Below, piece after piece: positions 5,115 through 55,201 of a stretch of 64,000 nucleotides of DNA; position 1 is the first letter of the stretch; the number at the start of each line of letters is the position of its first letter. The translations under genes and the position numbers were made by a program. Source of the stretch: Cystobasidiopsis lactophilus (lineage: Eukaryota > Basidiomycota > Agaricostilbomycetes > Agaricostilbales > Chionosphaeraceae); the NCBI GenBank assembly GCA_001599975.1, contig BCIO01000003.1:372001-436000 (forward strand), given 5' to 3'. The notes below the pieces were generated by a model that saw only the letters and a list, made by a program, of their open reading frames with translations, ran no database searches and was not told the DNA's origin.

Positions 5115-5813
5115 CTACCCGTTCGCCGCCACAAGCCCCGACGGCGCCTTCTTCCGAGGCGACTCGACAAGAAGTCCGTCGGCTATCGTCCACTCCGTTG
5201 CTCCCTTCCCCGTCGGCGTGTAGCGCTTGCCTCTGTAGACCAGGACGATAGCGGAGCAGTTCGTCACCCGTTCCAGTCGAGGCAGATCATCCAGCGAAAC
5301 CTCGTCCTCAACAGATCCATAGCGGAAGGTTAGGTGGGTAATTCTTTCCAGGCCAAGCGTTTCCAGCGCTGCCACGTTGATCCAATCCGACCCTTCGTAG
5401 AGGTCGATTTCCAGGTCGATGTCGAGTTGGGACCGATTGTTGGCAATTGCAGGGAAGGAGAGAATCTGGCAGGCATAGTCGGAGTAGGTCTCTTCGAAGA
5501 GGATCCAATGGATTCGTCGCACATGAATCAGAGAAGGCGCAAAGCATTCCAACCACGCCTGAATCTTGTCCGTGGCCTCTTCGTCTGGGCCATCATCAAG
5601 ATAGATCTGCAACGAACGCCACATGGGAAGGGCGAACGCGTCCCGAAGCTGGTGATTGACATGAAGGGCCCATGGGAAGGGCGTCATCCTGCAAGAACAA
5701 CGCGACCGGAATCGACCGTGCTCGGTGCGGCCGACATTCAACGTCATTTGCATCATTTCGGCAAAGCCACCAATGTGGATCAGGATCTCCTTTGGCAGGT
5801 CGGTGAGCCGCAT
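5115..5813 (-). CDS. Short F-box protein (left cluster, copy 1)
   Basis: Single-exon gene of 232 residues. The N-terminal RLTDLPKEILIHIGGF is the first half of an F-box, which would recruit Skp1 for an SCF ubiquitin ligase. It continues with VNHQLRDAFALPMWRSLQIYL, where the family P-x-L-W becomes LPMWRSL. Next comes the family segment APSLIHVRRIHWILF (about residues 92-106). The shared C-terminal module follows: LDDLPRLERV, YRGKRY and ATEWTIADGLLVE. There is no hydrophobic tail, unlike some paralogues. The substrate is unknown. It belongs to the ten-gene F-box family of this window and is transcribed in the same direction as the next short copy upstream of it. Confidence 0.75.
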   Translation of the reverse strand: MRLTDLPKEILIHIGGFAEMMQMTLNVGRTEHGRFRSRCSCRMTPFPWALHVNHQLRDAFALPMWRSLQIYLDDGPDEEATDKIQAWLECFAPSLIHVRRIHWILFEETYSDYACQILSFPAIANNRSQLDIDLEIDLYEGSDWINVAALETLGLERITHLTFRYGSVEDEVSLDDLPRLERVTNCSAIVLVYRGKRYTPTGKGATEWTIADGLLVESPRKKAPSGLVAANG

Positions 5814-6396
5814 GACTTTTGATCGATCTGCTCGCCTCGAATGAGCTCACTTGTCGTCCTGGAATGAAGCGCACATACATTTTCGAGCTTCCAGGAAGCC
5901 ACGAATGGCTCAACAAAGGCACACAGAGACGACAATTTTGCCGTGACAAGTCAGTGCCGCAGATTTGCAGTTGAGTGACCAATGCCAAAACGGAGGCGCG
6001 GCTTGGGCTCGCTGCACAGGTTGAGGCAGGCTCTCTTTCAGGCAGGTTGACGCTCCCTTGAGGTTACAGTGGACGATGCGGCAAGAAAGCGAAACCGAGA
6101 TGTTTAGGTGAGGGATGTCGTATCGGCGAAATGCCTTGGTGGTGGCCAGCCTTTTGCCACCCAATGCTTGCAACCCGCTCTGTGTGCTCTCCAAAAGTAC
6201 AAAGACAGATAGAAAGGTACGCCCAGTGTTAACCAATCCCGAGATCCTTCGATCCCTCCAGACCCACCAAAACGCCACTCACCTCATTGACTCCACAAGG
6301 TAGAACTGTTCGGGAACCAGCACTCTTGAGCATAGACCTTGAGAGCGCGAGATTTTGAAAGTAGCTCACAAGTCTTCCTTCTTCCGTGTCCACCCG
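5814..6396. promoter_or_regulatory. Intergenic with a GGTGGCAAA motif
   Basis: 583 bp between two short F-box genes, serving as promoter of the lower one. TTTGCCACC at 6153-6161 (GGTGGCAAA in the direction of the minus-strand gene) lies about 340 bp upstream of that start. It matches the yeast Rpn4 (PACE) core. Function here is inference only. Confidence 0.3.
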
Positions 6397-7143
6397 CTAC
6401 AACAGGCGCGGACGATAGCAGGAATACTCGATGAGCTCGCCATCGTGAACGGTCCACTCGAACTCCTCGGTTCTCTTGATCTCCAAGCGCTGGTCACCAA
6501 GAATCAATGTGCAAGCGGTACTCTTGACTGAAACCGACTGAAGGCTAGGGAAGCCGTCTAAGTGGATGGTGGCCGGAGCGGAAGAGTAAGACCCGATTTC
6601 GATGCGGGTGATTCGGTTCCAGTCCATGGCGTCCGTTGCCAGCACCTTCTTCCACTGCTCGCCGAAATGCATGCCTTCTAATGTGATGCCGATCTGCTCG
6701 CTGTTGTCCCTAAGTGAGGGAAAGGACAAAATCGATGCGGCGAGCTTGAGACAAGAGGCTTGCGTGCCAAAATTGAACACGACTCGTCGGACGAAGGTCA
6801 AAGGACGGGCGTAGTGATTCAGAAAGAGGAGGAATCTGAGCAGAGCCGTATCTTCTTTGATGATATCAGAAGGAAAGTCGAATGCAAAGCGAGAAGGAAA
6901 GTCGAATGCAAAGCGGAAGATGAAGATAACAGATCGCCACAAAAATGGAGAAAACGCTTTGTGGAGCTGTCGGTTGATGCCAAGCGCACTCGAATGGCGA
7001 GCGGGATGGAAGTCCATCTCTTGCTCTGGTCGGTGGTTGGAGGTGAACGATTTGAGCGGTGGCAAAAATGATATTTCTGGAGAGCCTTCGAAGAAGGATC
7101 CAATGTGTTCGAGGATTTCAAACGGCAAGTCAGTGAGGAGCAT
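6397..7143 (-). CDS. Short F-box protein (left cluster, copy 2)
   Basis: Single-exon gene of 248 residues. It starts MLLTDLPFEILEHIGSFF (F-box), followed by NRQLHKAFSPFLWRSVIFIF, the second half of the F-box with the family P-x-L-W-x4 signature. YARPLTFVRRVVF is the R-P-x2-x-V segment. The C-terminus has the shared module LDGFPSLQSV ... LGDQRLEI ... FEWTVHDGELIE. An exact 24-nt tandem repeat duplicates eight residues (RFAFDFPS) right after the F-box. The length and module order match copy 1, which lies 583 bp downstream in the same direction. Skp1 binding is inferred from the F-box, and the target is unknown. Confidence 0.75.
   Translation of the reverse strand: MLLTDLPFEILEHIGSFFEGSPEISFLPPLKSFTSNHRPEQEMDFHPARHSSALGINRQLHKAFSPFLWRSVIFIFRFAFDFPSRFAFDFPSDIIKEDTALLRFLLFLNHYARPLTFVRRVVFNFGTQASCLKLAASILSFPSLRDNSEQIGITLEGMHFGEQWKKVLATDAMDWNRITRIEIGSYSSAPATIHLDGFPSLQSVSVKSTACTLILGDQRLEIKRTEEFEWTVHDGELIEYSCYRPRLL
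6868..6915. repeat. Exact 24-nt tandem duplication in a coding region
   Basis: Two identical 24-nt units, 6868-6891 and 6892-6915, sit inside the short F-box gene. They keep the frame and duplicate eight residues. The identity of the units points to a recent slippage event. Confidence 0.9.
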
Positions 7144-7725
7144 GGTCTTCTGTCCACATTCCCGACATCAGCCTCTGCTCTTTGCCATAAAACAATCACC
7201 TGTACCTTTTTTCCAGCTTCGAATAGCTTTAGATGGGTCTGGGATGGCCAAGCTAGGAGCGCAGATCGTAGATTGAAGACAGCACTTTGACAGGCCCGCC
7301 GGGCAGACGATGGAAGATTGGGGTTTGAAAGAGGCAAAGCTTGCTTCAGGGCTGAGCTTGCCTCAGGCGCAGCGCGGATGCTGTAGTTCTTGCAAAAAAA
7401 CGACGTCGAGGTTGACAGGTCGGCGGAGAGGGAGAGAAAGAGAAGCCTGCTGTCAAAGTTCGCTGAACGCCCAGGCGTGCGCTGGTGGTGCAACTTTCGC
7501 CGCCGCGGCAGGCCTTCGAGAAGGAAAGCGCAAGCCTCATTGTTGTCCTGGAGATACTTTCATGGGTAGGTAGGGTAGCCGGAAAGCCATTGAAATTCAA
7601 ATGGCATAAGTTCGTTTCGTGAGTACATGTACTGCAAGTGCCTGAGTGAGCCTTTTATGGCCACCAAGAAAGAGAACGAAAGGCAAGCTCACCAAGGGAG
7701 CAGGCCGAAGAGTCAGGGAAGATGT
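7144..7725. other. Intergenic between short F-box and DUF7726-like genes
   Basis: 582 bp between the short F-box start and the 3' end of the next minus-strand gene. Small open frames exist on both strands but none shows family motifs or a coherent splice pattern. I see only promoter and 3' UTR space. Confidence 0.5.
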
Positions 7726-8781
7726 CTATCCCATGAAGACCCAGACCTTGCGGTTGGCGGCATGAGCATCCATGTGGTGGCCATCGGCTGTTCAGGGCGC
7801 ATCAGAACTGCATTCCACAGGGTTCATTCAACTTTCGATGGAGTACTGTTCATTCAACTTGAGACGTACCGCCCCAGGCCTTCTCGTTCTTCTTGCGGGT
7901 GGCGCTCTTGGGCTTGCCCTCGGCGATGCGCTTCTTCTCAAAGTAGTGCTGTTTTCCTACCCATCAGCTATGCTGCACACTCAAGAAGAAAGAAGAAGAT
8001 GTACGTAGGCGGCCCAGTAAGTGCCGTTGCCTTTGAGAACGCGTCAGCACGGGAAGGATGGAAGAGGAGAGGGGCCGACTAACCAGCGCCGCCGTCAGGT
8101 CCAGTCTGAGCCATCTGGTGGGGGGAATGAGACGTGGAGTTCAAATAGATCTGAGGATCAAGCGCTTACGAAGCGGCCGTACTGTAAGTGGATGAGAGGA
8201 ACGTTAGTGCCACCACCCGGAGAGCAATTGAGGTGCGGCGTACAGAGTTGGAGTTGACCCTGTTCCGTTGACGTGGTCAGCATCACAGAGTCACTTCAGA
8301 TGAGAAAACGCACTGGAGCTCCTTCTGGAAGTGGGTGACCTTTCGAGTGAAACTGCTGTCAGCCTGGTTCAACGCGCAAGTCTGGCAGCTCGATTCACCT
8401 TGTTGCCCTCAGCGATGTGGGCTATAGAGCTCTGTAAGCATCATCCAAGAGTGACGAAAGGCAGACGAACCTCGGATCTTGCGGCGGACCTCGTTCTGCG
8501 CACCGACCTTCAGGAATGTGCAGCGAAACAACAACGCGGGACAGACGTACGCAGTTGTCGTAGATGGGGGCCTCTTTGGGCTGCACATTGTCAACATTGT
8601 CAGCTGACATTGCCCTGGCACGCCACAGAAGCTTCGGCGCGCTTACATCGTAGGCGGCGAGCTCCGCCTCGATTTGGGCCTCTTTGGTGAGCTTGACCTT
8701 CTTGCTGCTGCTGGTCGAAGCCTTCTCGGCCTGCGGCTCGTTCGCGTCGACGTCGTCGAGGGGGCGCTTGGTCGAAGGCAT
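7726..8781 (-). CDS. DUF7726-like (homeobox-like) fungal protein
   Basis: Spliced by eye from about ten small exons. The start is MPSTKRPLDD with a basic SSSKKVKLTK stretch resembling a nuclear signal. Then follow APIYDNC, NEVRRKIRAHIAEGNK, SSFTRKV, YGRFMAQTGPDG, GTYWAAYHYFEKKRI and AEGKPKSATRKKNEKAW. From memory, this order matches a fungal domain listed as DUF7726: a D-x-C-x-x-(V)RRKI start, a NRFM-Q-GP centre and an AY-FFEK-RI-EGKPK end. That domain is small, helical and often called homeobox-like. Function is unknown; a nucleic-acid role is only suggested by the basic stretch. Some exons are very small (for example the 12-nt exon for YGRF), and one predicted intron is only 35 nt, so the model needs transcript support. 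It sits inside the left F-box cluster but is unrelated to it. Confidence 0.65.
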
Positions 8782-9104
8782 TGTCAACCAAGGGGATGGG
8801 TGGTTGGTGCAGAAAGAGGAAATCAAAACGCGTCACAGCAGCGCAAAATGTAAACAAAGATTCCCGAAGTGTGTCCCAGAGCTGCTGTCTACAGTCTGAC
8901 CGCTGAACGCCGCTGAAGCGCAAGGAGAGAAGGGCTAGGCAATGTCTCAAGGGCGCAAGCGATTGCAGGCAAAAACCGGGGCAAGGAGGACGACTTGGCC
9001 TCCAAACGGGTCCAAGCATACAATCATTCTGCTCTTAAGTCTACATACAAGATCAGACAAAATTGATGTTCAGAACACACCATCTCCCTCTCCAGGGACG
9101 CCCG
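8782..9104. other. Intergenic
   Basis: 323 bp between the DUF7726-like start and the B-type F-box stop, both on the minus strand. It is promoter and 3' UTR space, with nothing else recognised. Confidence 0.5.
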
Positions 9105-10776
9105 TCACTGGTTAGGTTGCCCATCACTGTCGCCATCTGCGGCCTGATCGTCGTCTTCTGCTGCTTCTTCTTCATCATCATCACCGTCTCTTGCGTCTTG
9201 ATCACCACTGCCATCTCCTACGTCCGGCTCATCTGGTGGTGCGTACGCGACATCAACCCCTGAACGACAGACATTAGCTCTCGACAACGAACGCCAGACC
9301 ACAGACGAAGACACCGTACGCGAGACTGAGCCAAAGAGCCCTCGGACACGCATCACATCTTCCACGATGTCTAATGCGAGTTTGTAGCGGCTGCATGCGG
9401 TCAGGTGCACTTGGGTCAAGGCGGGAAGCGCGGACGGCGTGCAGAGCAAGCGACCCAGGGCAAAGAGGACGGGCTGGTCGGACGGCATGTTGCTTGATAT
9501 GCTAATTGTCAAAGTGGTGATTGTAGGGTGCGACAGCATATCGACGTTCATGGCGTCCAGTGCCGAAGGCGTCATGGTGTCGGTGTCGGCCTGCGGGAAC
9601 GCGTCGCTCTCCTCGCCAAAGATCAGGCTGAGTCGCTCCAGTGTCGCGAACCGCTGCAGTCCGCGCCAGTCAAAGTGGCGGAATCGGCTGTCGTCGGCGT
9701 CCGCCTCTTCGTAGCAGAACTTGAACTGGAGCGAACACAGCGAGACCGGGAGCTGCTGCAGGAACACGGGCCAATCCCTGCTCCAAATTGATGAACGAAC
9801 CACTTGAGAACGCTTTCGTCGAAAAGAAAAGACAGCTTGGAGGAGCTCACACTTGCAGGTCTAGGGAAACGACACCCCAGACGTCGACTTCAGCTTCGAT
9901 TAAGCCAAACCGATCTCCCATGTCTTTGACCGACCCAAAATCCTGCGTCATGGCCCAGCGATGGTTGTCGCCCATAGAGATGCGGAGTTTCACCAGCCGC
10001 AGGCCTTCCGGTTCCACCACCCATTCGCAGTCATCATACCAAGACGACGTGCCGTACTCCACCCCTTTATAAGTGAACCGAGCACTCGAATAGCAGACTA
10101 CCGCTATCGACGTCAAAGCTGGAAACTCCTCGATGGCAAATCGGAGCGGCGGGGGTTCTGGAAAGTCTGGGTCTCCGCCATCATACTCCAGCTTGAGGTG
10201 AGTCAGCTGAGCGAAGACGGCAGGTATGAGCTCGGTGCAGGTGGAGGAGGCAGCTTGGGTGAAGTGCGCCGCAATACTGATCTTCGGTTGCGTTTCGTTT
10301 AAATGAGCCTCTTGAAGGCGCTTCAGAAAGGCGCTCATGAACGTCGAGGCCAGCCCATCTGGTACACCACCCTCCACGTGCAAGATGAGCGATGTGATTT
10401 GCACCAGGGGCGTTGGCGCAATCGCAAACAACGAGGCCACTGCTGCTAAGGCGTCCACCTCGATTTGGTGCCAGGGCAACAAGGGAGCCCTTCCTTCCTT
10501 TGAGAAGCCGACGCGCACCGTCGCCCAAAGCAGAGGATACACCAATTGAAGCACTCGACGATTGACCAAGAGCAGAGACCAGGCTTTCGGGCCTCTGAGC
10601 GTAGCACGGAGGATGCTGTGTTCATCGAAGCGGATCGTGATTGAAGGAGGCTGAGAGTCAACGCCCGCCGGCATGCAGAAGCCGAAGATGGGCGAAAGCA
10701 GCTCGTCAGGTAGCCCTAAGAGCCCGGACGATGGTATTGGGGCCGGATTGGAAGCCTGCGAAGGGCGCATTGCCAC
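9105..10776 (-). CDS. Long F-box protein, B-type (left cluster)
   Basis: Three exons with introns at 9778-9850 and 9260-9319. It starts MAMRPSQAS and has the F-box at GLLGLPDELLSPIFGFC, then VNRRVLQLVYPLLWATV. The shared module reads IEEFPALTSI, YKGVEYGTSSWYDDCEWVVE. VWGVVSLDLQ leads across the first intron into DWPVFLQQLP, opening the second C-terminal module (FRHFDWRGLQRFATLERL, LIFGEE). The last exon encodes a strongly acidic tail of D and E residues. Its closest relative is the plus-strand gene at 52087-53602, which has the same two intron positions but a much shorter tail. The acceptor for intron 1 was chosen because it is the one that keeps the conserved D-W-P frame. Confidence 0.7.
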
Positions 10777-10993
10777 GAAATGAGAGGATCGCCGGATCGA
10801 CCGGGAAGCAGTGGCGACTGACCATTCTTCTTTGCTCTATGGGATCTAACTGGAGCCGTTGGTGTAACCAATGGTCGCACTTCACAATGAGATGATCGCC
10901 TGGGTCAAAGCGCATAGAGAACAGCCTATTAGTTAGTGAGGGAACTCGAGCCCGATGTGGCAGACTCGAGAAGTGGTAGGGAAGAAGTGGTAT

Positions 10994-12582
10994 TCAAGAG
11001 TTCAGCCTAGAGTACACCGCCCAGAGGATGATGAGAATGTTTAGGGCCCACACAACGTAGCTCCAGTCAAATTCGAATCCTCCCCCGTCTTCCACTCGGC
11101 CCACCACTTCAAACTCTGGGACAAAGTCTTGATGCGATGATTTGACGGTGTTGAAGCTGCGGGTAAAGGTTAACCTATAGGGGGACAACGAAGTGCGGCT
11201 CACTTGTAGTAGGAATGCTCGACGCCCTTGATCTCGCACAATCGCCTGAGTTCGTCCACCTCTGCATCGCTGTTTTCAGATGCGGTCGTCACGCAGAGCC
11301 CTTTCAAAGCCGGAACTGCATAGGGTCTGCGCATGAGTTCGGTGAGCGCGGCGAAAAGGACGGCGGAGTGGCTGGGCGGCCCTTTGAGAGCAATGTGTAC
11401 GGCCAAATATTCGAGCTTTGGGAGCCACAAGGTCTCCAGAGCCAAGAACCCGCCGTTTGGAGATGTCGATCGCGAAAAGGACGGGTCCAGGATGACTGGG
11501 TTGGAAAAGGAGTTGTAGAAGGAGAGCGTCAAACTTTGCAGACCACCGAAGCGACTGAAGTTGTGCCACGAAGAAAACCCGGTAAAGTGGAGGTCTTCGA
11601 GAGATTCCATCCGGTAGTAGAAGGCCAGAGCGAAGTCAGAGAGGTCGGCCGGCAAGCTGTCGACGAACGCGGACCACCTCATGCGGCCAGTCGACGACGG
11701 GGCTTCGCCAGCTGTCACCAGAAGTTTGATCGCAGAAAGAGGTGTATTGTCGGCGAGTCGTGAAATGCTTGCCATCTGGGTGTTGTTTGGCTGGTGCGCG
11801 AGAGTCACTGAAAGGGATGACAGCTGAAGGGACCCGCCGCCGCCGCTTGCAGACCAGTGTGCATAATCTCGAGGCTGCAGAGGCAGCTCGTAGATCTGAC
11901 CACCATACAGATACTTTTGAGTGGCGTGGCCGTGGAGGGAAAGCGACTGCAGTTGTTCGAAGGCGTCGAGTTCAAGCGGGTTGATAGTAGCAATGTGTGG
12001 GGGGAGCCAGGAGCGACCTTCGATTTCGAGATTGTTGAAAAAGGTCGGTTTGAAGCTGGGAAGCTTCGCAATGCCGGCCAAAATCGTGGGAGGTACGCCA
12101 TCGATCGCGAGACTCCCGTGCAGTTCGTGGTTTGGAAGAATGGTGAACAAGGCGTCACATATACCCAGCAAGAAGCTGGAGTCGGCCACAAGGGCGTCGG
12201 AGCGGCTCTCTTTGGTGAGCGAGACGCTGAGGCGTTTGATATGCCCGATCGGACGTTGACGCTGACGAAAGGACGAGGACACGCGAGCGACAACGGCATC
12301 CTTTTGTTTCTGAGTGTAGTTCGAGCTGGTATTATCTCCGAGAACAGACAGTTGGTGCCACCAAGATACCGAGAGATAATTCCAGAGCACCGGCGAGGCG
12401 ATACGATGAAAGCGGCGGCAGACGCGGAGGAAATATCGGGATTTGGAAGACCAGAACAAAATCTGCACTTCCAGCTTGCCTCGTCGGTCGGTGTTGTGGA
12501 TGTGGAAGGAAGGCGAACTGGTGACAATTTTGCTGCAAATGATGCCGAGCAGCTCATCAGGAAGGTCCAGAAGCCGCGCCAT
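10994..12582 (-). CDS. Long F-box protein, A-type with C-terminal hydrophobic segment (left cluster)
   Basis: Main exon of 460 codons plus a last exon (10994-11156) after an intron at 11157-11203. It starts MARLLDLPDELLGIICSKI, then VCRRFHRIASPVLWNYL completes a good F-box. RQRPIGHIKRLSVSL is the R-P-x2-H-I segment. LDAFEQLQSL ... YGGQIYELPL is the shared module. WSAFVDSLPADLSDFALAF begins the second module. The final exon encodes DWSYVVWALNILIILWAVY, a likely membrane span four residues from the end (followed by SRLNS). Without that exon the protein would end at HSYYK. The plus-strand gene at 50331-51983 has the same layout. The model suggests a tail-anchored F-box protein; the membrane location is inferred. 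Confidence 0.7.
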
Positions 12583-14588: not shown

Positions 14589-14795
14589 CTCGCATCGTGG
14601 CTAGAGGGTCAGCAGCTTTCAAATTGGGCAAGGGCGAGTGCCACCAAGTTTCTTTACAAGTGGTTGGCGGGCATTTCGTCAGAACTGTCATCATGCGTAT
14701 GAATCACACAAGTGGACTCAAATGTTGGAAACCCCAATTGCCCGTCTCCTATGCCCACAGCGGAAAGCCATCATCAATCTCGTTTCTCACGTTGC

Positions 14796-16292: not shown

Positions 16293-16640
16293 CGTGAGCC
16301 TTTGCGTTGCCCTCATCAATTCTCTTCTCCATCTCAAGAATGATGAAGAGGGCATACAAACGGCACTTTCACCAGTCCAAGAAGCCCTGCGCGAAGCAGA
16401 CGCTTTTCAAACTTTGGGCCAAGGTAGAGCCGAGCAGCGGGCAAATGGCGGTCGGTAGCGGCGGGCAAAGCTCTACAGAACACTTCAACTAGTCAGGCAA
16501 GCGTGTCAGAGGCAACAAAAGCAAGCTGCCGTTGGCTGCAGGCGGCAACAAACAAATGCTCGCCCAAATCGGCGTGGGAAAAAAAACTTGGGAGCTGAGC
16601 GGGCGATTCCGATGGTGGCCAGCAGCAGCCAATTAGAGTC
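16293..16640. promoter_or_regulatory. Divergent promoter region, F-box / RIP1
   Basis: 348 bp between the F-box start (-) and the RIP1 start (+). It should carry both promoters. No TATA box or other motif is clear. Confidence 0.5.
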
Positions 16641-36307: not shown

Positions 36308-37986
36308 TCACCGATACACCGTCATCGTAACCGGCTGCTTCCGATACTCCTTCTGCTCCGCCGTCAAGCTCGGTCCTCGGGGGTCCACATACAGAATCTG
36401 TTCGTCAAACGCGCCTGACCATCAGACTCTGTCTTTCTGATAATGCTGGTAAGAGACGAACCTGATATTCGGTGTGCTTCTTCAATTTCGCCGAGTTGAC
36501 GCGGTAAGGGCTGAGCATGTCGGCCGGGCGAGATCCCAGATCCAAAGCGGGCTTGCGGACGGGCGACTTGAAAGAGTTGGTTTTGGGGCTTGAGGAATCC
36601 AACTTGGCTCGTTTGGCAGGTCGCTCTCCCTCGTCGGTGGTGGTGGTGGAAGCTTGGAGCGCAGTGGCGGCCTTGGTGATCTTCGGTTTGTCTCGACTGT
36701 TTCGCACCCAAGAAGAATAATTAGGCACCATCTAATGACGCGGGAAAGGGGACGAACGCAGAAGGATCGAAGACCAGCAAGCCCACCGTCCCATCCTTTG
36801 CCCTCTCCACACCGACAATGACCCTCGAATGGCCCGAGTGCTGCAAGAACAGCGGCTGTTTCTTCCCCTGGCGCACGCTCGATCCTTTGCTCTCCATCAG
36901 ACCGCCCCACGTTTGCCCCTGCGGCCGCACGTCCTCCTCGAAGTAGTCCGCCACCCACTTGACCACATGCTCCGTCGTCTTGGGGCCCTTGACGAAATCC
37001 ACAATGACCACTTTCACCCCTAACCAAGTGAACGCCGACCAGAGCTCGGTGGTCCCGATCCACTTTCGGCGGCCGACCAGCTTGCCGCCGTAATGGCGCG
37101 CAGCAGTGGGGTCGTAGCCTTTGGCCCAAGCCTGCTCGAGGATCAGCTGGACCTCCTTAATCGTTGGTATTTCGCGCTTGGGAAACAGCCGGGAGTAGGC
37201 GGGAACGTGGAGGAGGGAGGAGAAGAGCATCTGGAAACACCGGAAGCCGCAGCCGTACCCTGCGTCGCCTGTTTGATCGTATCAGCAAGATTTCTCGTCG
37301 ACTGAGCAAGTTAGGAGAACGAACCAAAGTGGACGCTGACATGCTGCGTCTCCCTGTCGCACAACACCGCAGAAGCCACGGTGCTGCTCTTCTCCAGCAA
37401 CGCCGCGAGCACCGGCAAGACGGGCGGCTTGACTGTGACCCGCTGTTCGAACCTGCCCTCCCCGCCTTCAATGCTCACGCCCTCTTCACCGTCATCATCG
37501 GCCAGGGCAGCAGCCGCGTCAAGGGAAGCCAAGCAGGCGTCCAAGTGCGCCGAGGACAGCGCTTCATCCTCGTCCAAATCCACATCGCACACCGGGCAAG
37601 CCTGGCCTCCCAGTCTCTGAGCGGGTTGGTAGCTAGCAACAGGGCCAGGCAGGGCAGACGTGGAGGCGGTGGCAGAGGCCAAGCAGGCTTGCACATGCGC
37701 CTCTCGCTCATCCAGCAGCAACAGGCGCAGTAACACGAACGGGATCTCGCACGACGGGCAGCTGTCCTCTTCCGCTTCAGTAGCGGGTGCTGGAGAGGGC
37801 GCAGCCAGGGCAATAGCGAGCGGCGGCGAGGGCGAGCGAGCGGAGCCATCCAGGCATTTGTTCTGCGCTCGCGTTGCCTGCGGTCAGCTCGGGCTAGGCT
37901 GGGGCAGCAGAACCGCGTACGACGTGGTAGTCAAAGTACTCAGAGTCGCCGTCGATCGACCGCGAGCACAGCGGGCAGGCCGGCAT
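36308..37986 (-). CDS. ZUP1-type K63-ubiquitin peptidase (C78 family)
   Basis: N-terminal start MPACPLCSRSIDGDSEYFDY. An intron joins it to HVNKCLDGS, giving a C-x2-C...H-x3-C ubiquitin-binding zinc finger of Rad18/UBZ type. Two more fingers follow: SCPSCEIPFVLL...HVQACLAS and ACPVCDVDLDEDEAL...HLDACLAS. The peptidase C78 domain begins HFGDAGYGCGFRCFQMLFS, with the catalytic Cys in Y-G-C-G, then IPTIKEVQLILEQAW, WIGTTELWSAFTWLGVKV, PLFLQHSGHSRVIVGVER and LLVFDPSA (catalytic His and Asp). After another intron it continues RDKPKITKAATALQ, a linker with a basic PAKRAKLD signal, and ends YRVNSAKLKKHTEYQ then ILYVDPRGPSLTAEQ. The family (human ZUFSP/ZUP1, fission yeast Mug105) cleaves K63-linked ubiquitin chains at DNA-damage sites. 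An in-frame ATG about 40 codons upstream is possible. Confidence 0.9.
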
Positions 37987-38778: not shown

Positions 38779-39918
38779 GCTGCCTCGTTCTAATGGATCT
38801 TTCGCAAGGTATGCGGCGCAACGACCGCTCTTGGCAGTTCTTCCAGCAAGAAGATAAAAGAATCGAATCGGACGATTGCAAACGGCAAGGGCGCCGATGA
38901 GGAGGGGCTGAACAAGCTAGAGCTTTCTCAGTCTCGATGCGGGTGCGATGCAAGGAGAACTACGATACCTAACCGGCTCGGACACATCCAAGAGCGAGCT
39001 TCCCAGGTCCAGGTCTGAGGGAGAGACGACTGATGCCCGAGTCGAAAACCTGCCCGACTCGAAAAGCGCCACTGGCACTTCTCGCCCGAAGTCACTTCTG
39101 GTTGGTGGCGAGCTTGCGCCTTGGCCACCGCCTTAACCCACAGTCGGCTATAGTCATCCTGTTGGAGGTTTCGCGTGATGATAGGGCAGCAGCAGCGTCG
39201 AGGGAAGCCAAGCAGGGGTCCAAGTGCGACGACGACAGCGCTTCATCCTCGTCCAAATCCACATCGGAAACCGGGCCAGCCTGGTCTCACAGTCTCTGAG
39301 CGGGTTGGTGGCGAGGAACAGGGCCAGGCAGGGCAGAGGCAGAGGCCTCGCAGAGGCGCGATAACTTGACATGTGGCAGAAGCGGGCTGGCAAACAGGCG
39401 ACAATGGGTACGCCGCCAGACAGATCCGTCGTCAATACCGAACAACACTCTTTGGCTGCTCAAGGACAAGAGCACGCAGAGGTCCATGCAGCGCGAGAGC
39501 TCGGACCTTTGGCAACGAATCACAATCGCGTGAGCGGGCGGTCACTCCGTGCTTGTTTGGGATCGATTTAGGACGTGTTATGGACGCTCATATCTCTACT
39601 AAAGCCACACGAGACGCCGGAAGCATGAGCTAAGGAGGACAGACGGCCGTGAGCAGTGAGCCACCGCCGAAACTTCTTCATTTGCGCTTCGAGTCTAAGA
39701 TCGATGGTGCGCTTTCAATTTCAAAGGCAAAGCAGTTTTATGGCAGGTTCAGTAGACTAGTCCAGGTTGCCGCTTTCCGATCTCCGATGTATCAACACAG
39801 ATGAAATTTTGCCACCTCATCGGCATTCCGCAACCCTGGCTATAGACTGTCTGTGGATTGGCTGTTATTGAGCTGTCACGACGATACATGTTCATCAGTC
39901 AAGCGGGCGCACCTGTGC
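38779..39918. other. Gap holding a decayed ZUP1 fragment
   Basis: 1140 bp between the small gene and the F-box gene. Apart from the ZUP1-like fragment at about 39175-39350 and a TTTGCCACC motif at 39808-39816, I see nothing. Confidence 0.5.
39175..39350 (-). pseudogene. Decayed partial copy of the ZUP1 third zinc finger
   Basis: About 150 bp here match 37509-37660 of ZUP1 at roughly 90% by eye, in the same orientation. The copied part covers the third zinc finger and the linker on either side. The first two ligands of C-P-V-C have become G and S (GPVSDVDLDEDEAL), and HLDACLAS reads HLDPCLAS. The finger has lost metal binding and there is no start or peptidase domain. It is a short segmental duplication about 1.6 kb from its source. 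Confidence 0.8.
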
Positions 39919-41313
39919 TCAGACGATTTCGATTTCCACTTCAGCCTTGACAGCTATTGCTTCCAAATCGTTTAGCTCTTGCGCCACTTCCCCTCCAACT
40001 CCCTTATCCGCACCCTGGACGGCAAAGTAGATATACGAAAGCTCTGGCATCCTCGCCACCTTTGCGCCAAGCAGGTGAATCAAAGACCGAACTAGCAACG
40101 CGGCGTGCTCGGAGGGTAAAGCGACGCCCCAATACGACAAAACAGAGAGGTGTTCCAAGCTGGCCAAAGACAAGTGCTCGAGAGACATGATGCCATCGTT
40201 GTCTGTAATCGGAGCAACCTTTAGATCGACGTCGCCACGGCTGCCGGGAAAAATCCACGCATTCGGTTCCATTGTGGCAAAGACATGGCTGAAGCCAATC
40301 TTCAATCGCTTCAGGGAGGAAAGATGGTTTAACGATGACCAAGTTTGAATGGCGGAAAGAGGAACGGTCCGAAGATCACTCAGGATGTAATCGAAGTGAA
40401 GGGTGAGATCGACCAGCGTGCTAGGGATGTCGGACAGCGTCTGATTCCAGCTGAGCGATTTTTGGGCTTGTGAAGCGAATGCAAGAGCGATGCTTGGTCG
40501 GTTAGGGCAGTCGGGCAAAGTGGAATGAAGCTGAAAGCTGGTGGGGCCACGGGAGCGGGAATGCTGCCGGCACATCTTCAGCCACCAGTCTCGCCCTTGA
40601 GCCTTCAACCATGGGTGTCCATCTTCCACCACTGACTCCAAAGTGCTAGTGATAAGCCTATCGTCCTTCACATGCCAGCAAACGATGTCCGGTTCGGCCG
40701 CCGTATAGATCTGACCGTTCAGAAGGAAGGCGCAGGGCGTATTGATGGCTTGAACACTCTGGAGGCCTACAAGGGCGTCCAGGCAAATGGGATTGCTGAG
40801 GTGGTGACCGCCCCCTCGAAAGACTAGGTCAGTCAACCAAGCTTTCGGCCACGCTTGATTTGCCAAGAGAGCGTGGACAGCGTTCTGCGAGAAGTGATAC
40901 AGGTTGAAGTTCATGCGAACTGATCTTCCTTTGAATGGCGTCGAGGAGAGCACAGTAGCTATAAGATGGCCGTATTCTCGCTGGTTCATTTCGAATCGGA
41001 CAGTGCGTGTGTGCGAGAGTTGACGGTGGAAATGGGATAAAAGAAGCCGCAAAGGTGCAAGAAGAAGAGTGTTGCCGGCTGGGAAGTGCACGGGGTCTGG
41101 CATGCCGAAGGTGAGCTCTTGCCAAAGGGCTGGTGCGAACAATCCAGCAATTTGACGGCAGGTCGTGAGTAGATCGAAAGCATTGTCGTGACGAAAGCGC
41201 CAAAATGCAGCTCGGGTAGACGAGTCGTATAAGGGCAGAAAGGCAGGAGACGAGCCCATGTGAGAAGCGATCTCCAACAGCGCGTCCTCAGGGAGCGAGA
41301 GAAGCGAGGGCAT
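39919..41313 (-). CDS. Long F-box protein, A-like (solitary copy)
   Basis: Single exon of 464 residues. It starts MPSLLSLPEDALLEIASHMG, an F-box first half, then TTCRQIAGLFAPALWQELTF (P-x-L-W-x4). FHRQLSHTRTVRFEM is the diverged R-P-x2-H segment. LDALVGLQSVQAINTPC, LNGQIYTA and IVCWHVKDDRLI form the shared module with its W-x-V-x-D-x-x-L ending. WNQTLSDIPSTLVDLTLHFD and WSSLNHLSSLKRLKIGF form the second module. The C-terminus (ELNDLEAIAVKAEVEIEIV) is soluble. It lies midway between the two clusters, on the strand of the left one, and is the most diverged member. Confidence 0.65.
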   Translation of the reverse strand: MPSLLSLPEDALLEIASHMGSSPAFLPLYDSSTRAAFWRFRHDNAFDLLTTCRQIAGLFAPALWQELTFGMPDPVHFPAGNTLLLAPLRLLLSHFHRQLSHTRTVRFEMNQREYGHLIATVLSSTPFKGRSVRMNFNLYHFSQNAVHALLANQAWPKAWLTDLVFRGGGHHLSNPICLDALVGLQSVQAINTPCAFLLNGQIYTAAEPDIVCWHVKDDRLITSTLESVVEDGHPWLKAQGRDWWLKMCRQHSRSRGPTSFQLHSTLPDCPNRPSIALAFASQAQKSLSWNQTLSDIPSTLVDLTLHFDYILSDLRTVPLSAIQTWSSLNHLSSLKRLKIGFSHVFATMEPNAWIFPGSRGDVDLKVAPITDNDGIMSLEHLSLASLEHLSVLSYWGVALPSEHAALLVRSLIHLLGAKVARMPELSYIYFAVQGADKGVGGEVAQELNDLEAIAVKAEVEIEIV

Positions 41314-47045: not shown

Positions 47046-47473
47046 GGCCTATCAAACCCTCCTGCAGCACATAAGAGCAGTCGCCGTCGTCGACTTCGAG
47101 CAAGCACCAACCTCGTCACTGCGGCAGATGTTTTTTTTTCTTTTCTCTTTTTCTTTCCCACCTTGAAGCGGTGAGCCCGTTCTCTTCTTCTGTCCACGTC
47201 GGCCACCTCTGACCCTGACAGATCATCGACTTGCATCACATTGCATCACAGAGATCCTGCCCTAAGCTCAAAGCCATCCCAGACCTCTCCCAAAGCCCGG
47301 CTCGAGCCCAATTTTCGCCACTTGACGAGGAAGCTGTCAAAAGAGCTGTCAGAGCGATTGCTGTCTGTAGCGTGCCGTGCTTGTGCCTTTTTTGGATTGT
47401 TTGAAGCCTCAGAAAAGGTATATCTTATGTAATTTGGCTAGATAAAGGTCTCAAGGCGGGAACAGAAGCGATC
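47046..47473. promoter_or_regulatory. Divergent promoter with F-box leader module
   Basis: 428 bp between YME2 (-) and a short F-box gene (+). The part nearest the F-box gene (about 47190-47473) is nearly identical to 54020-54304 upstream of its sister copy. It includes the element CTTCTGTCCACGTCGGCCAC followed by TGACCCTGACAG. A long T-rich tract lies at about 47130-47158. Confidence 0.6.
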
Positions 47474-48229
47474 ATGGTGCTGCTCACCGACTTGCCGATG
47501 GAAATCCTCATCAAAATCGGGAGCTACTTGCAGGGCAATCTCAGGCCGTGGATCTTTCTAGCATATGATGATGCTACGATCCACCACGTCGGCGGAAGCA
47601 ACGGTCCCAATGCTGCCGCCGCTCGGACCTGCCGCCAGCTTTACAACGCGTTCATGCCGTCGCTCTGGCGGTCGGCCACTATAGAGTTCTTACCACCCAC
47701 TCACACTACTAGCTCCTACAAATGCTTGAACCCGGGCCTTGATCATTCTATTGGCGTCACGCCTTGTGTGCTCCATCGCCTTGGTCGACCTTTGCAGCAC
47801 GTCCGCCACCTGACAATGGTTTTCCGTACCCTAGAAGACTACACCAGCTGTTCGTCCAGATTTCAAGAGCTCCTGGCACTGCCCTGCTTCCCCAACAATC
47901 GCAACTTGATGGATTTGCACGTCGAGTTCTGGCACATACCGAACATTGACAAAGCCTTGCACGGCCTGTTCCCGGCCGCAGGAGGGTGGATCGACAGAGT
48001 TATCCAACTTGAAATCCAGTACGGCGGACAGCAGCGCTCTGATCCAATCTGGTTGGACCGATACCCTCGGTTGCAGAAGGTCATCCTGAACGGCACCCAG
48101 CGCACCCTCATTTTTGGCGGCCAAACCCACGAGTCACAGTGTTCGAGGGAAGGAATGGTGGAGTGGAACGTTAAAGACGGCCAACTTGTTGAAAACAAGC
48201 GATGGACATGGGACGGTGAGCAGTGGTAG
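47474..48229 (+). CDS. Short F-box protein (right cluster, copy 1)
   Basis: Single exon of 251 residues. It starts MVLLTDLPMEILIKIGSYL, then TCRQLYNAFMPSLWRSATIE (F-box with P-x-L-W-x4), GRPLQHVRHLTMVF (R-P-x2-H-V), LDRYPRLQKVILNGTQRTLI, FGGQTH and MVEWNVKDGQLVE (shared module). The reading frame beyond the stop still encodes CVGPVFFEQVVSFLTFTFLG, matching the hydrophobic tail of the sister copy at 54305-55201. A TGG-TAG here stands where the sister has TGG-CAG, so this copy ends about 60 residues early and has lost a likely membrane tail. Otherwise the two proteins are alike through most of their length. Confidence 0.75.
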   Translation: MVLLTDLPMEILIKIGSYLQGNLRPWIFLAYDDATIHHVGGSNGPNAAAARTCRQLYNAFMPSLWRSATIEFLPPTHTTSSYKCLNPGLDHSIGVTPCVLHRLGRPLQHVRHLTMVFRTLEDYTSCSSRFQELLALPCFPNNRNLMDLHVEFWHIPNIDKALHGLFPAAGGWIDRVIQLEIQYGGQQRSDPIWLDRYPRLQKVILNGTQRTLIFGGQTHESQCSREGMVEWNVKDGQLVENKRWTWDGEQW

Positions 48230-48854
48230 CCTTGCGTGGGTCCTGTCTTTTTCGAGCAAGTGGTCTCCTTCCTGACATTCACATTCCTAGGCTGTCTCAA
48301 ACTCGGCTTCTCATCGATAGCCAAATGGATTGGAGTGGTGGCAACTTCACTCGTGGGTTGGAATGGGCGGAGTAGGGTCAAAAAAATCATTCAGCTTCTT
48401 CATCTGGGCTCTCGGGACACTTGTTGTACTTTTCGGTGTGCTTTTCTACGCTTTCGCTTGTACAAACTTGCAAACGGTCTCCAGTAGCACACAAACCCAG
48501 CACCAAGGCATCTGCCTGGACCTCAATTGCGCCTTCCCTTCTTCCGTCCGCGTCGGCCACCTGTGACCTTGACAGATCATCGACTCGCTTCTCAGAAAGC
48601 CTGCATCCTCTCCACTCGAGTCTAAACCGCTCCTCAAAGCCCTTCCCAGGACCAGGTTTTTGCCACTGGACCGAGAGCCGTGCCAAAAAGCTGTCGGCGA
48701 GAGCAGTTGCCTTCCTTCATCGAAGCCGTCGACTTTTTTGCGCTGCCTAGTCGTGCATTCCTCGCCTCCTGATCGCTTGAAGGCTTGCCTCAGGTGAGGT
48801 GTGGGTAGCTCGACCAGAAGAGGAAGGCTGACGGTGAGCTCAGAAAGATCCATC
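48230..48854. promoter_or_regulatory. Gap: fossil tail plus F-box leader module
   Basis: 625 bp. The first part (to about 48420) is the former tail of the preceding gene, still readable. The second part holds a diverged copy of the F-box leader at about 48500-48720 (CACCAAGGCATCTGCC, CTTCCGTCCGCGTCGGCCAC, TGACCTTGACAG). Confidence 0.55.
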
Positions 48855-49739: not shown

Positions 49740-50330
49740 TAGAGCAGAAAAGGCTTTGGGTAGCTTGGTTTTTTGTTTGTGGCCCTGTTTTCTGGCCTTC
49801 TTCTTCTGCATACCTGTAATCAGATGGCCTTGCAAATCGAGATGGTGGCGAAATTTGGGGTCCTCACCAAGGCATCTTGCCGAATCAAAGCCGGCGCTTC
49901 GAAATCCGCCTTTCGCTTCTCTGGTCGCAGCCGCCACCTGTGACCTTTCCAAGCTGTGACGGTTGCGCTCAACCAAGGTCCTGCCACCACCGAAGCGAGC
50001 CCACGCCTCGAGACGTCTCCCAAGCGTTCTCGTTCGACCCTCCTCGCCTGGACTGACGGCTGAAATTCAGTCTTCGCCGGCACGCCATCTGGTCTTGGCT
50101 CCAGGATAACGAGCAAGCCAGGGCCCATCTAAAAGCTTTCGCAGCCAGAGCTGTTTGCACGATCTCTTGGCGAGCTAAAAGCGTCGAAGCGAGCTCCAAA
50201 GTGTGCGGGCAATTGAGGTCTCTCAGAGCCTGAGCATCACCTTTCCCGTCGCTGCTCCGAGGTGAATGACTCCCTTCATATTGGTCGGTGCTGTAGCTCA
50301 ACCCACACTACGAAGAAACAGCGCGCACCA
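49740..50330. promoter_or_regulatory. Intergenic with partial leader element
   Basis: 591 bp before the A-type F-box gene. It includes GGTGGCGAAATTTGGGGTCC (about 49842) and a degenerate leader copy, CACCAAGGCATCTTGCC then GCCGCCACCTGTGACC, near 49867-49945. Confidence 0.45.
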
Positions 50331-51983
50331 ATGGCCGGCCTCCTGGACCTGCCCACTGAAGTCTTAATCGTCATCTTTTACTACACCTTTGACACCCACC
50401 CGAGCCTCTCGATCACTTTCAGCGAGAGAGCCGATGGTGTGCTGACTTGGGGCAGCGATCTTCGAACCTCCCCATCCCACCAAGTCTTGCGAGTCAATCG
50501 CCGCGTATTTCACATCGCCAGCCCGGTACTCTGGTCTGGCATGACATTGGATTTGGCCGAGAAGGAAGTCAGCCGCGAGCACGCCGAGTCGCGCCGTGTT
50601 GGCGAAGTTTCAAACCTTTTCAAGCAAATGCGACCCTACTTGGCGCACATCCACAACTTTTCGCTTTGCTTGGTGGCCTTCAAAGTTCCCAGCTCGCCTC
50701 CGACGTACTCCACTCTTTTGCCGGTCTGTGACGCCTTTTTTGCTGCTCTTCCGCCGTCCGATTTGGTCGGTTGCCTTATTCTGAACGACATATCGCCAAC
50801 GCTGCTGCCTCACCTCGCCAACTTGCAACATTTCAGGCCAATCTTCCACAAGCTTCAGGTCTTGACACCCCTGACCCCACACCTCCCTACGCCTACCCCT
50901 ATAGCGCTCGATCAGCTTGGCCCCCTTAAACGCGTCGAGCTTCCTGCACATCGAGCCCAGCGTTACGAGTACCACGGTAGGGCCTGTGGTGTCATGCTAG
51001 GCCCATCCATGTTTGGGACCTGGGACTCAAAAGGCAACGAGGGCGTCTTAGAGCTTACGCAGGTCCGGCTGTACCTTTTGCGCAATAGCGACTTCGGCCT
51101 ACCTTCAGATCTGTCGGCCTTCAGCCAAATAAAAGACGACTTGGGCCAGAGCGACCTTCGTGTCAGCGTTTCAGCTCTGGAGGCCGGCCCTTTCCACTTG
51201 CACTGGCCCTCTTTCGCCCAAGCTTTGCCAGCTGCCATCACGGAGCTCAGCTTGACCTTTCATTACAAGCGCGAAGACTTGGAAGACCTTCGGTTCGGCG
51301 CCTTTTCGAACTGGCAGCCAATCCATCATCTGCCCAACTTGCGCCACCTTCGTCTCGGCTTTGTCAATTCCGGAAAGGCCATCTTGGACCCGTCCTTTGT
51401 GGCAGGACTCTCCCAAAACGGAGGCCTCCTCTGGCTGCATACTTTGCCTTTCGCCAGCCTCATCACCCTCAACATTTCCATCGACAGCCACATCCCTTCT
51501 GCCCATCTTGCCACGCTCTTGTCCACCCTCGCCACGTACCTGCACAATCTTCCTTTACATGCTCCCCTGGAGAGTATTGGCGTCAGGTCTTGCTACAAGC
51601 AAGACGATCCAGAGGTCGAGGCGTTGCGCACGGCTTGTGGCGCTCGCAGCATCCATTTCGACCATAGCCTGTAGGTCGCCCTCTCCTCCAGATCTCTGTT
51701 TATTCTGTGCTGACTGGTTGGATCGACGAAGGGTGGCTATACGAGGGGAGCAGAGGGGTTCGACTGCGCCATCGCCGGGTGTGACTGGACGGCCGTTCAG
51801 CTGATGGGAGTTGTTGCGCTTCCCGGTTTTCTTCACGCTGTACTTCTTGTGGCTTGCCTTCTACTTCAAACCTCAATAGACTCCTTGAAATCACCAAGAG
51901 TCACAAACTCAAGAGGCGGCGCGGCCCTCTCCAAGTCGACTCGCCCCTTTTCTTCCCCTCCAACTTCCTGGCCGCCTCCCTAA
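50331..51983 (+). CDS. Long F-box protein, A-type with C-terminal hydrophobic segment (right cluster)
   Basis: Starts MAGLLDLPTEVLIVIFYYTF, then VNRRVFHIASPVLWSGMTLD (F-box). MRPYLAHIHNFSLCL is the R-P segment. LDQLGPLKRVELPAHRAQRY, YHGRACGV and GTWDSKGNEGVLEL form the shared module. WPSFAQALPAAITELSLTFH and WQPIHHLPNLRHLRLGF form the second module. The first exon would end at FDHSL with TAG. A predicted intron (51671-51745, phase 2, as in the left A gene) leads to GAEGFDCAIAGCDWTAVQ and the hydrophobic stretch LMGVVALPGFLHAVLLVACL, then a basic S/P-rich tail with TAA at 51981-51983. The same intron phase and the same D-W-x-x-V start of the hydrophobic exon in both A genes support this model. 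Confidence 0.65.
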
Positions 51984-52086
51984 ATGAGCTACTCCACGAA
52001 CGAGTCTCTTTTCGAGCACCCTATACCAAGTGTGAGCTGCGAAAGGGAGCACCTTGGCAACCTCCCATTGCCGCATCGCCACCATC

Positions 52087-53602
52087 ATGGCTTCTGACTT
52101 GAGTGCGCAGTGCTCACGGGCGGCACCTTTGGGGCTGTTGGACCTGCCCAATGAGATCCTTTCTCCAATTCTGGACTACTGCTGGGATAGGGAGATGCCA
52201 TGGGTCAAGGTCGCCTTCAACAAGGGCTCACTGCGCACAACCTTGACCGGCTCCGCAACTTGGCGGCCTTTGCTTCTGATCAACAAACGGGTTACTCAAG
52301 TGGCGTATCCTCTGTTGTGGGAATCGCTTGGTCTCGAGTTCTTTGTGGAGGATGATGAAGCCCCTCGTGTTCTATCGGACCAAAGGCAGCCGATCGACGC
52401 TTCAGCTGCTGTGGCTTCCCTCTTTGCGACCGCACTACGCCCTTTGTCTCATGTGATCAACATCGGCTTGGATGTGCGGGGGGAGGTCCCAGAAAGTCTG
52501 ACATGCGCTTTTATGGCCACATTCTTGGCACGCTGGCGAGACCACGATTTGCCAGTCCGTGTCGCCATCTACCTCACCCAAGTGGCCCACCCTACTTTTA
52601 CAAGCTTAATGGAGATAGCAAAGACCCTTCTGGTCCACCTAGTGCTGAAGTACGACGACCGCGATCCAAGAGTGGTGCCGCAACCTCCGGAGCCGCCTTT
52701 GGCTATCGACCTCGACAACTTCCCAGCTTTGGCTACTGTGATATCTTACTCCAGCATCCGATTAATCAAGAAGGGCAGAGCGTACAGCACGACGTCGTGG
52801 CATGATGGGTGCACGTGGCGGGTCGAGGAGGACGAGTTGCGGCTGACGGGGCTGCAGCTCTCGGTCAGAGACGATCACCACTGGACCATGACGCCGAACT
52901 TCTCTACTGCAAAATACTTGGGGACCCTCTTTGGCCCAGTAGAATTGGAAATGGTGGTGTACGGCGTGGCGTCGCTGGATCTGCAGCTGTACGTGCTCGC
53001 TGAGCGCTTTGATTTAGGCAGTCGCTCATAGTCAGTCTCATTCAAGGGACTGGCCGCTATTCCTTGAACACCTCCCAAGCACCATTTGCAAGCTGCAGAT
53101 GCATTTCGTCTACGAAGAGCCGGATGTGGACGACAGCCGCTTCCGCCACTTTGATTGGGCGGGCCTACAGCAGTTTCCCGCTCTCCACACTTTGAACCTA
53201 ATCTTTGGCGATGAAGTGGACCCTTACCCCCAAGTGGACTCCGACATGTCACCGTCCGCGGAAGATGCGATGCGCATCGACAGGCTTTGCCATCCGACCA
53301 TCTCTCGCCTCTCTATCCGCATCGCCAACACCATTCCTGTGGAAGAAGAGATGTTATTGCTTCTCATCAGCCTTTTGGGCACGCGGTCCTTGCTCCCCTC
53401 GTTGGCCCAACTAGACGTGACGGCCTGCAGTCGCCGCAAGGACGCGCTGGATGCGCTAGAAGAAGCGATGCGAATGCGTCAGCTTCTTGGGGCCGTTACT
53501 CGTAGGTTGCCCCTTATTGTGGACCATAGGGGAAGTCTCAACTCGAGGTTCGCTGCCATGCCAGGTCTGGACGAAGGCATCGAAGAAGAGACGGTTGGCT
53601 AG
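52087..53602 (+). CDS. Long F-box protein, B-type (right cluster)
   Basis: Three exons with introns at 52989-53031 and 53502-53564. It starts MASDLSAQC (an ATG 11 codons upstream is possible), then GLLDLPNEILSPILDYCW and INKRVTQVAYPLLWESLGL (F-box), ALRPLSHVINIGLDV (R-P-x2-H-V), LDNFPALATVISYSSIR, KKGRAYSTTSWHDGCTWRVE (shared module) and VYGVASLDLQL. After intron 1 comes RDWPLFLEHLP ... FRHFDWAGLQQFPALHTLNL (second module). The end is TRLDEGIEEETVG, a short acidic tail. It is the counterpart of the left B gene (9105-10776). An alternative 28-nt last intron would give a basic tail ending WELEE at 53717, but that intron is too short to favour. Confidence 0.7.
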
Positions 53603-54304
53603 CGCACTAGTTATCCACTTTTGGCGGTCGCGAGCGTCATATGGCTTGTGTGTGAAGCAGTTCGTTCTGCACGAAATCTCTCGCCAAGAGCTGTGGGAAT
53701 GGGAACTTGAAGAATGACAGAAGTCCCGCCGCATTCACTGGGTGAGAAAATGTCGCTGCTCGCTTTCTGACCGTGTTTGATATGTTTTGGATCACAGAAT
53801 CAAGCTCAGACCACCAGCATCTGTCCTTGGTGGCGGCTTCAGTCTTTTTGTTCGGTGGGCGGATAGGGCCAAAAGCCTTGGGATTTCTCATTTAGACTGC
53901 TGTGACACTTTTTGGACCATCAGTCTGTGCTTCTCTCCGCTTTCTCTTGTACCAAACCTGGGAACAACAAAACCCAGCACCGAGGCCTTTGCCTGGGCTT
54001 TGCCACGCTTCAGTCGCGCCTTCTCTTCTTCTGTCCACGTCGGCCACGTCTGACCCTGACAGACCACCGATTTGCTTCTCAGAGATCCAGCCCTAACCTC
54101 AAAGCCATCCCAGACCTCTCCCAAAGCCCGGCTCGAGCCCAATTTTCGCCACTTGACGAGGAAGCTGTCAAAAGAGCTGTCAGAGCGATTGCTGTCTGTA
54201 GCGTGCTGTGCCTGTGCCTCTTTGGGATTGTTTCAAGCCGCAGAAAAGGTATGTTTTGTGTGCTTTGTCCAGATGGAGGGCTCAAGGCGAGGGCAGAAGC
54301 GATC
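53603..54304. promoter_or_regulatory. Intergenic with F-box leader module
   Basis: 702 bp. The part at about 53950-54304 is the best match to the leader upstream of 47474. The frame of the following F-box gene stays open upstream to 53912, including KRAVRAIAVCSVLCLCLFGI, so a longer N-terminus with a hydrophobic segment is possible here but not in the sister copy. Confidence 0.5.
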
Positions 54305-55201
54305 ATGGTGCTGCTCACCGACTTGCCGATGGAAATCCTCATCAAGATCGGGAGCTACTTGCAGGACGACCTCAGACCTCGGGTCTATCTACGAGCTGAT
54401 GATGCCACGATCCACCACGTCGGTGGAGACAAACTTCGCAATGCTGCTGCCGCTCGGACTTGCCGTCTGCTTTACGACGCGTTCATGCCGACGCTCTGGC
54501 GATCGGCCACCGTACATTTCGAATATCTCAGCTTCATTGCCTATGGCTCATGCTTGAATCCTCGCCTTGATCATACTATTGGCGTCCTGCCTTGTGTGCC
54601 CCATCGGCTGGGTCGACCTTTGCAGCACGTCCGCAACCTGAGGATCGACCTTGATGACCTATGCATCCACTACAACTGCACCTCCAAGGTCCAAGAGCTC
54701 CTGGCGCTGCCCTGCCTCGCCAACAATCGCAACTTGATGGATTTGCACGTCGAGTTCTGGCACGTACGGCTCATTGACAAAGCCTTGCACGGCCTGTTTC
54801 CGGCCGCAGGAGGGTGGATCGACAGAGTCACCCAAATTGAAATCTTGGGTGGCGGACAGCAACTCTCTGATCGAATCTGTCTGGATCGATACCCTCGGTT
54901 GCAGAAGATCATCCTGAACGGCACCCAGGGCACCCTCATTTTTGGCGGCCAGACCCACGAGCCGAGGGAAGGAATGGTGGAGTGGAGCGTTAAAAACGGC
55001 CAACTTGTCCAAACCAGGCGATGGACATGGGACGACGGGCAGTGGCAGGAATGCGTGGGTCCATTCTTTTTCGAGCGAGTGGTCTCCATCCTGACATTCA
55101 CATTCCTAGGCTGTCTCAAACTCGGCTTCTCATCAATAGTCGTCGTTCCAATCGATCGTTGTGGTGGCGGCTTCACTCGTTGGTCCGAATGGGCGGAGTA
55201 G
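54305..55201 (+). CDS. Short F-box protein with hydrophobic tail (right cluster, copy 3)
   Basis: Single exon, near-twin of 47474-48229. It starts MVLLTDLPMEILIKIGSYL, then RTCRLLYDAFMPTLWRSATV, GRPLQHVRNLRIDL, LDRYPRLQKIILNGTQGTLI, FGGQTHEP and MVEWSVKNGQLVQ. It then keeps the C-terminal extension ECVGPFFFERVVSILTFTFL and GCLKLGFSSIVVV, a likely membrane tail, ending RWSEWAE. The frame is open for 131 codons upstream of this ATG. I keep the ATG shared with the sister copy because the sister has a stop in that upstream frame. Upstream and downstream flanks are also duplicated, so the copying event was recent and included several hundred bases either side. Confidence 0.75.
   Translation: MVLLTDLPMEILIKIGSYLQDDLRPRVYLRADDATIHHVGGDKLRNAAAARTCRLLYDAFMPTLWRSATVHFEYLSFIAYGSCLNPRLDHTIGVLPCVPHRLGRPLQHVRNLRIDLDDLCIHYNCTSKVQELLALPCLANNRNLMDLHVEFWHVRLIDKALHGLFPAAGGWIDRVTQIEILGGGQQLSDRICLDRYPRLQKIILNGTQGTLIFGGQTHEPREGMVEWSVKNGQLVQTRRWTWDDGQWQECVGPFFFERVVSILTFTFLGCLKLGFSSIVVVPIDRCGGGFTRWSEWAE

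Follow-up and report, generated by a model that had tools for sequence, protein, structure and literature searches.

A clustered family of predicted F-box/leucine-rich repeat proteins with an insert-split F-box in Cystobasidiopsis lactophilus

A 64-kb window of the genome of the basidiomycete Cystobasidiopsis lactophilus (22.1 Mb in 8 contigs; window C3:372001-436000) carries 11 related genes, which most likely encode FBXL-type F-box/leucine-rich repeat (LRR) proteins that serve as substrate receptors of Skp1-cullin-F-box (SCF) ubiquitin ligases, with a variable LRR face. Judged by sequence, the F-box of these proteins is split by an insert, which is predicted to form a beta-hairpin, and the region behind it is predicted to fold as an LRR solenoid with a beta-meander. 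Five of the genes belong to a short class (232-298 residues) and six to a long class, in which four genes are single frames of 447-498 residues and two contain one putative intron each (532 and 485 residues if spliced there). Members are named below by the first coordinate of their entry in Table 1.

Shared sequence beyond the F-box

The initial annotation of the window held that its genes share more than the F-box, and this was borne out. At E ≤ 1e-3, a profile of the part behind the F-box, built from 16 short members, recognised 25 of the 33 long members; of 693 control sequences, made by shuffling or reversal, none was matched, the best reaching 0.029. What counts against the similarity is that eight long members, including 50331 (E 4.8), miss this threshold; 50331 is linked to the family via 11203 by a nearly full-length match, F-box included (E 6.6e-55). 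Sequence comparison shows that the family similarity is real and reaches past the F-box, and that the genes are of common ancestry. The long class comprised 33 rows in this test, where each split gene was represented by its first exon, and 31 rows, with these exons excluded, in the analyses of conservation, strand alternation and strand variability. The underlying 49-member alignment consists of the 11 window members and 38 further genomic loci whose frames were usable and for the most part full-length; the family places outside it are fragments, duplicates or unfetched loci.

Ten genes had originally been listed. The family itself stood, with 52087-53602 as an overlooked eleventh member, and two gene boundaries were revised: the frame at 9105 is a family member but only exon 2 of a gene extending to 10776, and the member drawn from 10994 has its open reading frame stop at 11200-11202, in agreement with the end of its paralogue 50331. 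In an alignment of the 11 window members, in which the two split genes were entered as first exon only, columns M1, L4, L7, P8, L12, W65 and L200 are invariant, and the nearly invariant columns include L194, G216, W231 and L238. The two motifs first described as common to the genes are weaker than proposed: RPxxH[VIL] occurs in 6 of the 11 genes of the window and in 16 of all 49 aligned members, and the pattern W.[VILA]..[GD].[LVF], standing for W-x-V-x-D-G-x-L, in 19 of 49 members versus 165 of 2450 shuffles. The W column of the latter motif is at least 90% W in the 49-member alignment.

The split F-box

In each of the 49 aligned members, F-box helices 1 and 2 are separated by extra residues (median 23); the smallest length, 17, comes from an unsure row, L046. 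Many short members have LTDLPxEIL as helix 1, and helices 2-3 read AARTCRQLYxAFxPxLW, with a P8-to-W65 spacing of 52-78 residues (median 58). In the best ordinary F-box of the same genome, 44 codons span profile positions 3-46, and there is no insert.

Among intact members, PF12937 matched 8 of 49 at E ≤ 0.01 (best 1.2e-5; a few may pass the curated cut-off), PF13013 matched 2 of 49 and PF00646 none of 49. None of ten intact window queries exceeded the curated Pfam F-box cut-off (PF12937 or PF00646), 47474 scoring 24.1 versus 24.3 bits. With the insert cut out, PF12937 matched 39 of 47 members and PF00646 6 of 47, and shuffled sequences, a control that preserves composition only, gave 0 of 47. 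Two of the 49 were omitted from this set, 14799 having lost helix 1 in the cut and L046 having retained part of the insert. A standard F-box search thus mostly misses the family because a short insert interrupts the F-box.

AlphaFold2 models of 47474 and 50331 contain three predicted F-box helices. The insert strands lie at residues 25-30 and 36-41 in 47474 (block predicted local distance difference test score, pLDDT, 53-72) and at the positions given in Table 1 in 50331 (pLDDT 84-91). This insert, overlooked in the first reading of the sequence, is a more unusual element than the C-terminal region.

The C-terminal region as a predicted LRR solenoid

The region behind the F-box had been described as a module matching no named domain, perhaps a separate lineage-specific substrate-recognition fold. 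It is correct that no significant Pfam domain was found on this region in the window members; the separate fold was not upheld. Structure prediction and fold comparison of the long member 50331 gave an F-box followed by an LRR solenoid, the known kind of region that the initial annotation had itself set against its proposal, and the C-terminal region is very unlikely to be a separate undescribed domain. By VIA-align, the 50331 model aligns with chains of SKP2, FBXL2, FBXL3 (structure 4i6j, which we take to be FBXL3) and FBXL17, the first aligned residue being 1-3 and the last 447. No significant sequence match of the family to solved chains was found.

The long class has 11 predicted LRR strands and the short class about five. 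The originally described module corresponds to the fifth LRR strand and the predicted beta-meander, with LDxFPxLxxV leading into the fifth strand of the 50331 model; after the meander come six more LRR strands in the long class and the end of the protein in the short class. Hydrophobic alternation on the predicted strands was observed across the 31 long members, and sequence comparison showed the non-hydrophobic strand positions to be more variable. The model of the short member 47474 has the same order of strands and helices as the long class, and its fold comparison was weak; Foldseek hits of this model to KaiC and PEP carboxylase (E 0.009 or worse) were judged to be noise. An LRR profile gave one weak LRR_4 match among the 49 members (E 0.0015). 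Weak Pfam matches of window queries to STAT, JmjC and R13L1 (E 0.14-0.23) were attributed to chance.

Genomic extent and history of the family

A family place is a locus matched at E ≤ 0.01 by one or more of five protein searches of the genome. Merging the searches left 87 places, or 90 once three two-gene places were split; these are genes or gene remnants, some of them incomplete or weakly matched (E up to 0.01), and counts over the genome are lower bounds. The first 800 kb of contig C3 hold 49 of the 90 places versus 3.3 expected; the binomial statistic for this excess assumes independent places, an assumption that tandem copies violate. A second cluster of 8 places lies at C6:1.704-1.720 Mb. 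The genome-wide F-box search used PF12937 only (PF13013 and PF00646 being scanned on the 49 members) and found 30 places, 0 of 30 within 3 kb of a family place; the roughly 90 F-box-type places are thus three times as many. Three family places (G000:C3:1709002-1709527, C4:826759-828053 and C3:628718-630004) contain a frame change or in-frame stops, and may be pseudogenes or genes with unrecognised introns.

The family grew to about 90 places via tandem and segmental duplication. A tree of the 49 members, midpoint-rooted for drawing only and strongly supported on 13 of 46 inner branches, has one split (100/100) that separates 19 rows from 30, and all 16 short members form one group (98/96) on the 30-row side. 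Most likely the short class arose once, from a long-class ancestor, through loss of the C-terminal LRR half; we infer the direction of this loss. In the window, 11203 pairs with 50331 (99/95) and 9850 with 52087 (100/99; genes 9105-10776 and 52087-53602). The two blocks lie on opposite strands and share the order of transcription, 11203-type, 9105-type, short, an arrangement suggestive of an old inverted duplication of the block. The only recent copy found in the window is the pair 47474/54305.

Searches for relatives

A protein-database search with the short-class alignment (E ≤ 0.001) returned no relative, and one with the long-class alignment (E ≤ 1) returned none among the candidates examined, the window's own proteins being absent from both results. 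The search requires shared exact 5-residue words, so that fast-evolving relatives may escape it and absence elsewhere is unproven. The HSP70 protein of the window, run as a control, matched many fungi about equally well and showed the database to be rich in fungi, including Rhodotorula, Sporobolomyces, Microbotryum, Mixia and Puccinia (best 120 of 7999). A plasmid tblastn search with 47474 gave no match, nor did NCBIfam, a bacterial/archaeal library, for any of seven members. Among the open-licence literature matches listed, none described an insert-split F-box or such a family in a basidiomycete yeast.

Gene models of the window

Table 1. Family members and their features in the window
Feature	Coordinates	Strand	Basis
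Short-class F-box-LRR gene, 232 aa	5118..5813	-	alignment, tree
Short-class member, 248 aa	6400..7143	-	alignment, tree
Long-class member, 2 exons (10776-9851 + 9777-9105), putative intron 9778-9850	9105..10776	-	
Long-class member, 460 aa	11203..12582	-	
Long-class member, 498 aa	14799..16292	-	
Long-class member, 464 aa; in tree on same side as short class	39922..41313	-	
Duplicated segment, 83% DNA identity to 54021-55354; pair carries genes 47474 and 54305	47180..48522	+	
Short-class member, 251 aa, AlphaFold2 model	47474..48226	+	
Predicted beta-hairpin insert within 47474 F-box, residues 21-43	47534..47602	+	
'Module' of 47474: last LRR strand and its approach (residues 191-206), predicted beta-meander (207-245)	48044..48208	+	
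Short-class member, 294 aa	48855..49736	+	
Long-class member, 447 aa, AlphaFold2 model; tree-nearest 11203 (33% identity)	50331..51671	+	
Insert within 50331 F-box, residues 22-46, predicted beta-hairpin (strands 25-32, 38-45)	50394..50468	+	
Predicted beta-meander in 50331 (residues 207-250), after LRR strand 5 and before strand 6	50949..51080	+	
Predicted C-terminal LRR half of 50331, residues 262-447; not in short class	51114..51671	+	
Long-class member, exons 52087-52988 + 53047-53602, putative intron 52989-53046	52087..53602	+	
Short-class member, 73% identical to 47474	54305..55198	+	

In the gene at 9105..10776 the first ATG lies at 10770; its first exon encodes the F-box, the first LRRs and the meander, and its second exon the C-terminal LRRs. 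The paralogue at 52087..53602 is 45% identical to it over exon 1 residues 8-302. The frame of 54305 runs about 50 residues beyond the stop point of its duplicate 47474, and the extra stretch partly resembles the translated 3' flank of 47474. A direct repeat of about 176 bp (89% identity; 37504-37679 and 39183-39357) adjoins gene 39922. Shorter repeats near the short-class genes (47180-47240/48534-48594, 87%; 48364-48695/53856-54181, 68%) are perhaps flanks carried along in duplications. Elsewhere in the window, frame 21763-22335 matches Pfam DUF7025 (E 6.7e-7), and other frames match Sec23/Sec24, HSP70, RNA12 and WD40 models, a content that together with the putative introns points to a eukaryote.

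Proposed function and alternative explanations

By analogy with known FBXL biology, in which the F-box binds Skp1 and substrates bind mostly on the concave LRR face (excerpt of the FBXL review PMC7729025), the family members would act as SCF receptors: the F-box with its hairpin between helices 1 and 2 would dock on Skp1, and hence on a cullin-RING ligase, and the LRR solenoid would hold a substrate on its concave face and present it for ubiquitylation and degradation. The genome has one SKP1 locus and several cullin loci.

The insert might instead have disabled the F-box, leaving LRR scaffolds that do not bind Skp1 and work outside SCF complexes, as might be expected from the presence of extra residues in every aligned member and from the sub-threshold Pfam scores of the ten intact window queries. 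However, the short class is most conserved in its F-box helices (2.87 and 2.73 bits per site versus 1.45 for the insert), and the helix 1 sequences of 47474 and 54305 are identical at the amino-acid level, as expected if the F-box still binds a fixed partner; a disabled F-box is rather unlikely. Quite improbable, too, is a decaying birth-and-death family under weak constraint and mostly without function. The median identity to the nearest paralogue (32% for the 49 members) and the broken frames at some places are consistent with decay, as is the overall ratio of nonsynonymous to synonymous substitutions (dN/dS) of 0.67 for 47474/54305. By region, the ratio of this pair is 0 in helix 1 of the F-box and 0.94 in residues 67-110; all three values come from one pair with few sites. 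Yet most listed places lie in open frames of at least 230 residues, and the F-box, LRR core and meander have been conserved despite deep divergence.

That a separate undescribed substrate-recognition domain stands behind the F-box is very unlikely. The lack of a Pfam domain and of relatives in sequence searches would suit such a domain, as would the fairly conserved meander of the short class (2.07 bits per site, ranking fifth among 11 segments), but the long-class model with its fold comparison, the strand alternation across 31 members and the run of LDxFPxLxxV into the fifth LRR strand of the model all argue against it. Within the SCF-receptor assignment, the proteins could form a diversified repertoire for recognition or defence inside the cell, directed at viruses, mobile elements or non-self proteins; the concave LRR face would be its variable part, and the hairpin-split F-box a Skp1 interface particular to the lineage. 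This extension, which draws solely on family size, clustering, concave-face variability and an analogy with nematodes (excerpt of PMC8665587), we regard as unlikely.

Comparison with known systems

The proteins resemble the FBXL proteins SKP2, FBXL2, FBXL3 and FBXL17 in having an N-terminal F-box followed, in the long class, by a predicted LRR solenoid, and differ from them in the insert between F-box helices 1 and 2, in the predicted beta-meander after the fifth LRR strand, and in the existence of a short class in which about five LRR strands end in the meander. If they bind Skp1, the hairpin-split F-box would be an unusual construction of the Skp1 interface. The predicted meander, as a non-LRR segment that interrupts the solenoid, recalls the plant LRR proteins with non-LRR island regions; these are receptor kinases and similar proteins, and the excerpt of PMC4030839 names no such F-box family.

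Published fungal F-box counts rely on Pfam models, as in the excerpt of PMC4469406. A row of its Table 3 gives counts of PF00646 proteins: 7-18 for six Pucciniomycotina, 3-11 for three Ustilaginomycotina, and 43 under Agaricomycetes. Against the Pucciniomycotina counts about 90 places would be unusual, although the comparison is rough, since the Pfam models differ. As one short insert hides about 90 places from the PF12937 search, such counts may underestimate the expansion of F-box families in lineages of this kind.

Another parallel in family structure is with the Caenorhabditis FBA2 and FTH F-box families. According to the excerpt of PMC8665587, these are likewise large and lineage-restricted and owe their growth chiefly to tandem duplication; purifying selection acts on their F-box, while the C-terminus that binds substrates is more divergent. 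Their C-terminal domain is FBA2 or FTH, and dN/dS peaks above 1.5 were reported, whereas here it is a predicted LRR solenoid and no such peak appears in the one pair measured. If the proteins bind Skp1, these clustered LRR receptors would represent, within a genome of 22 Mb, a fungal equivalent of the F-box expansions known from nematodes.
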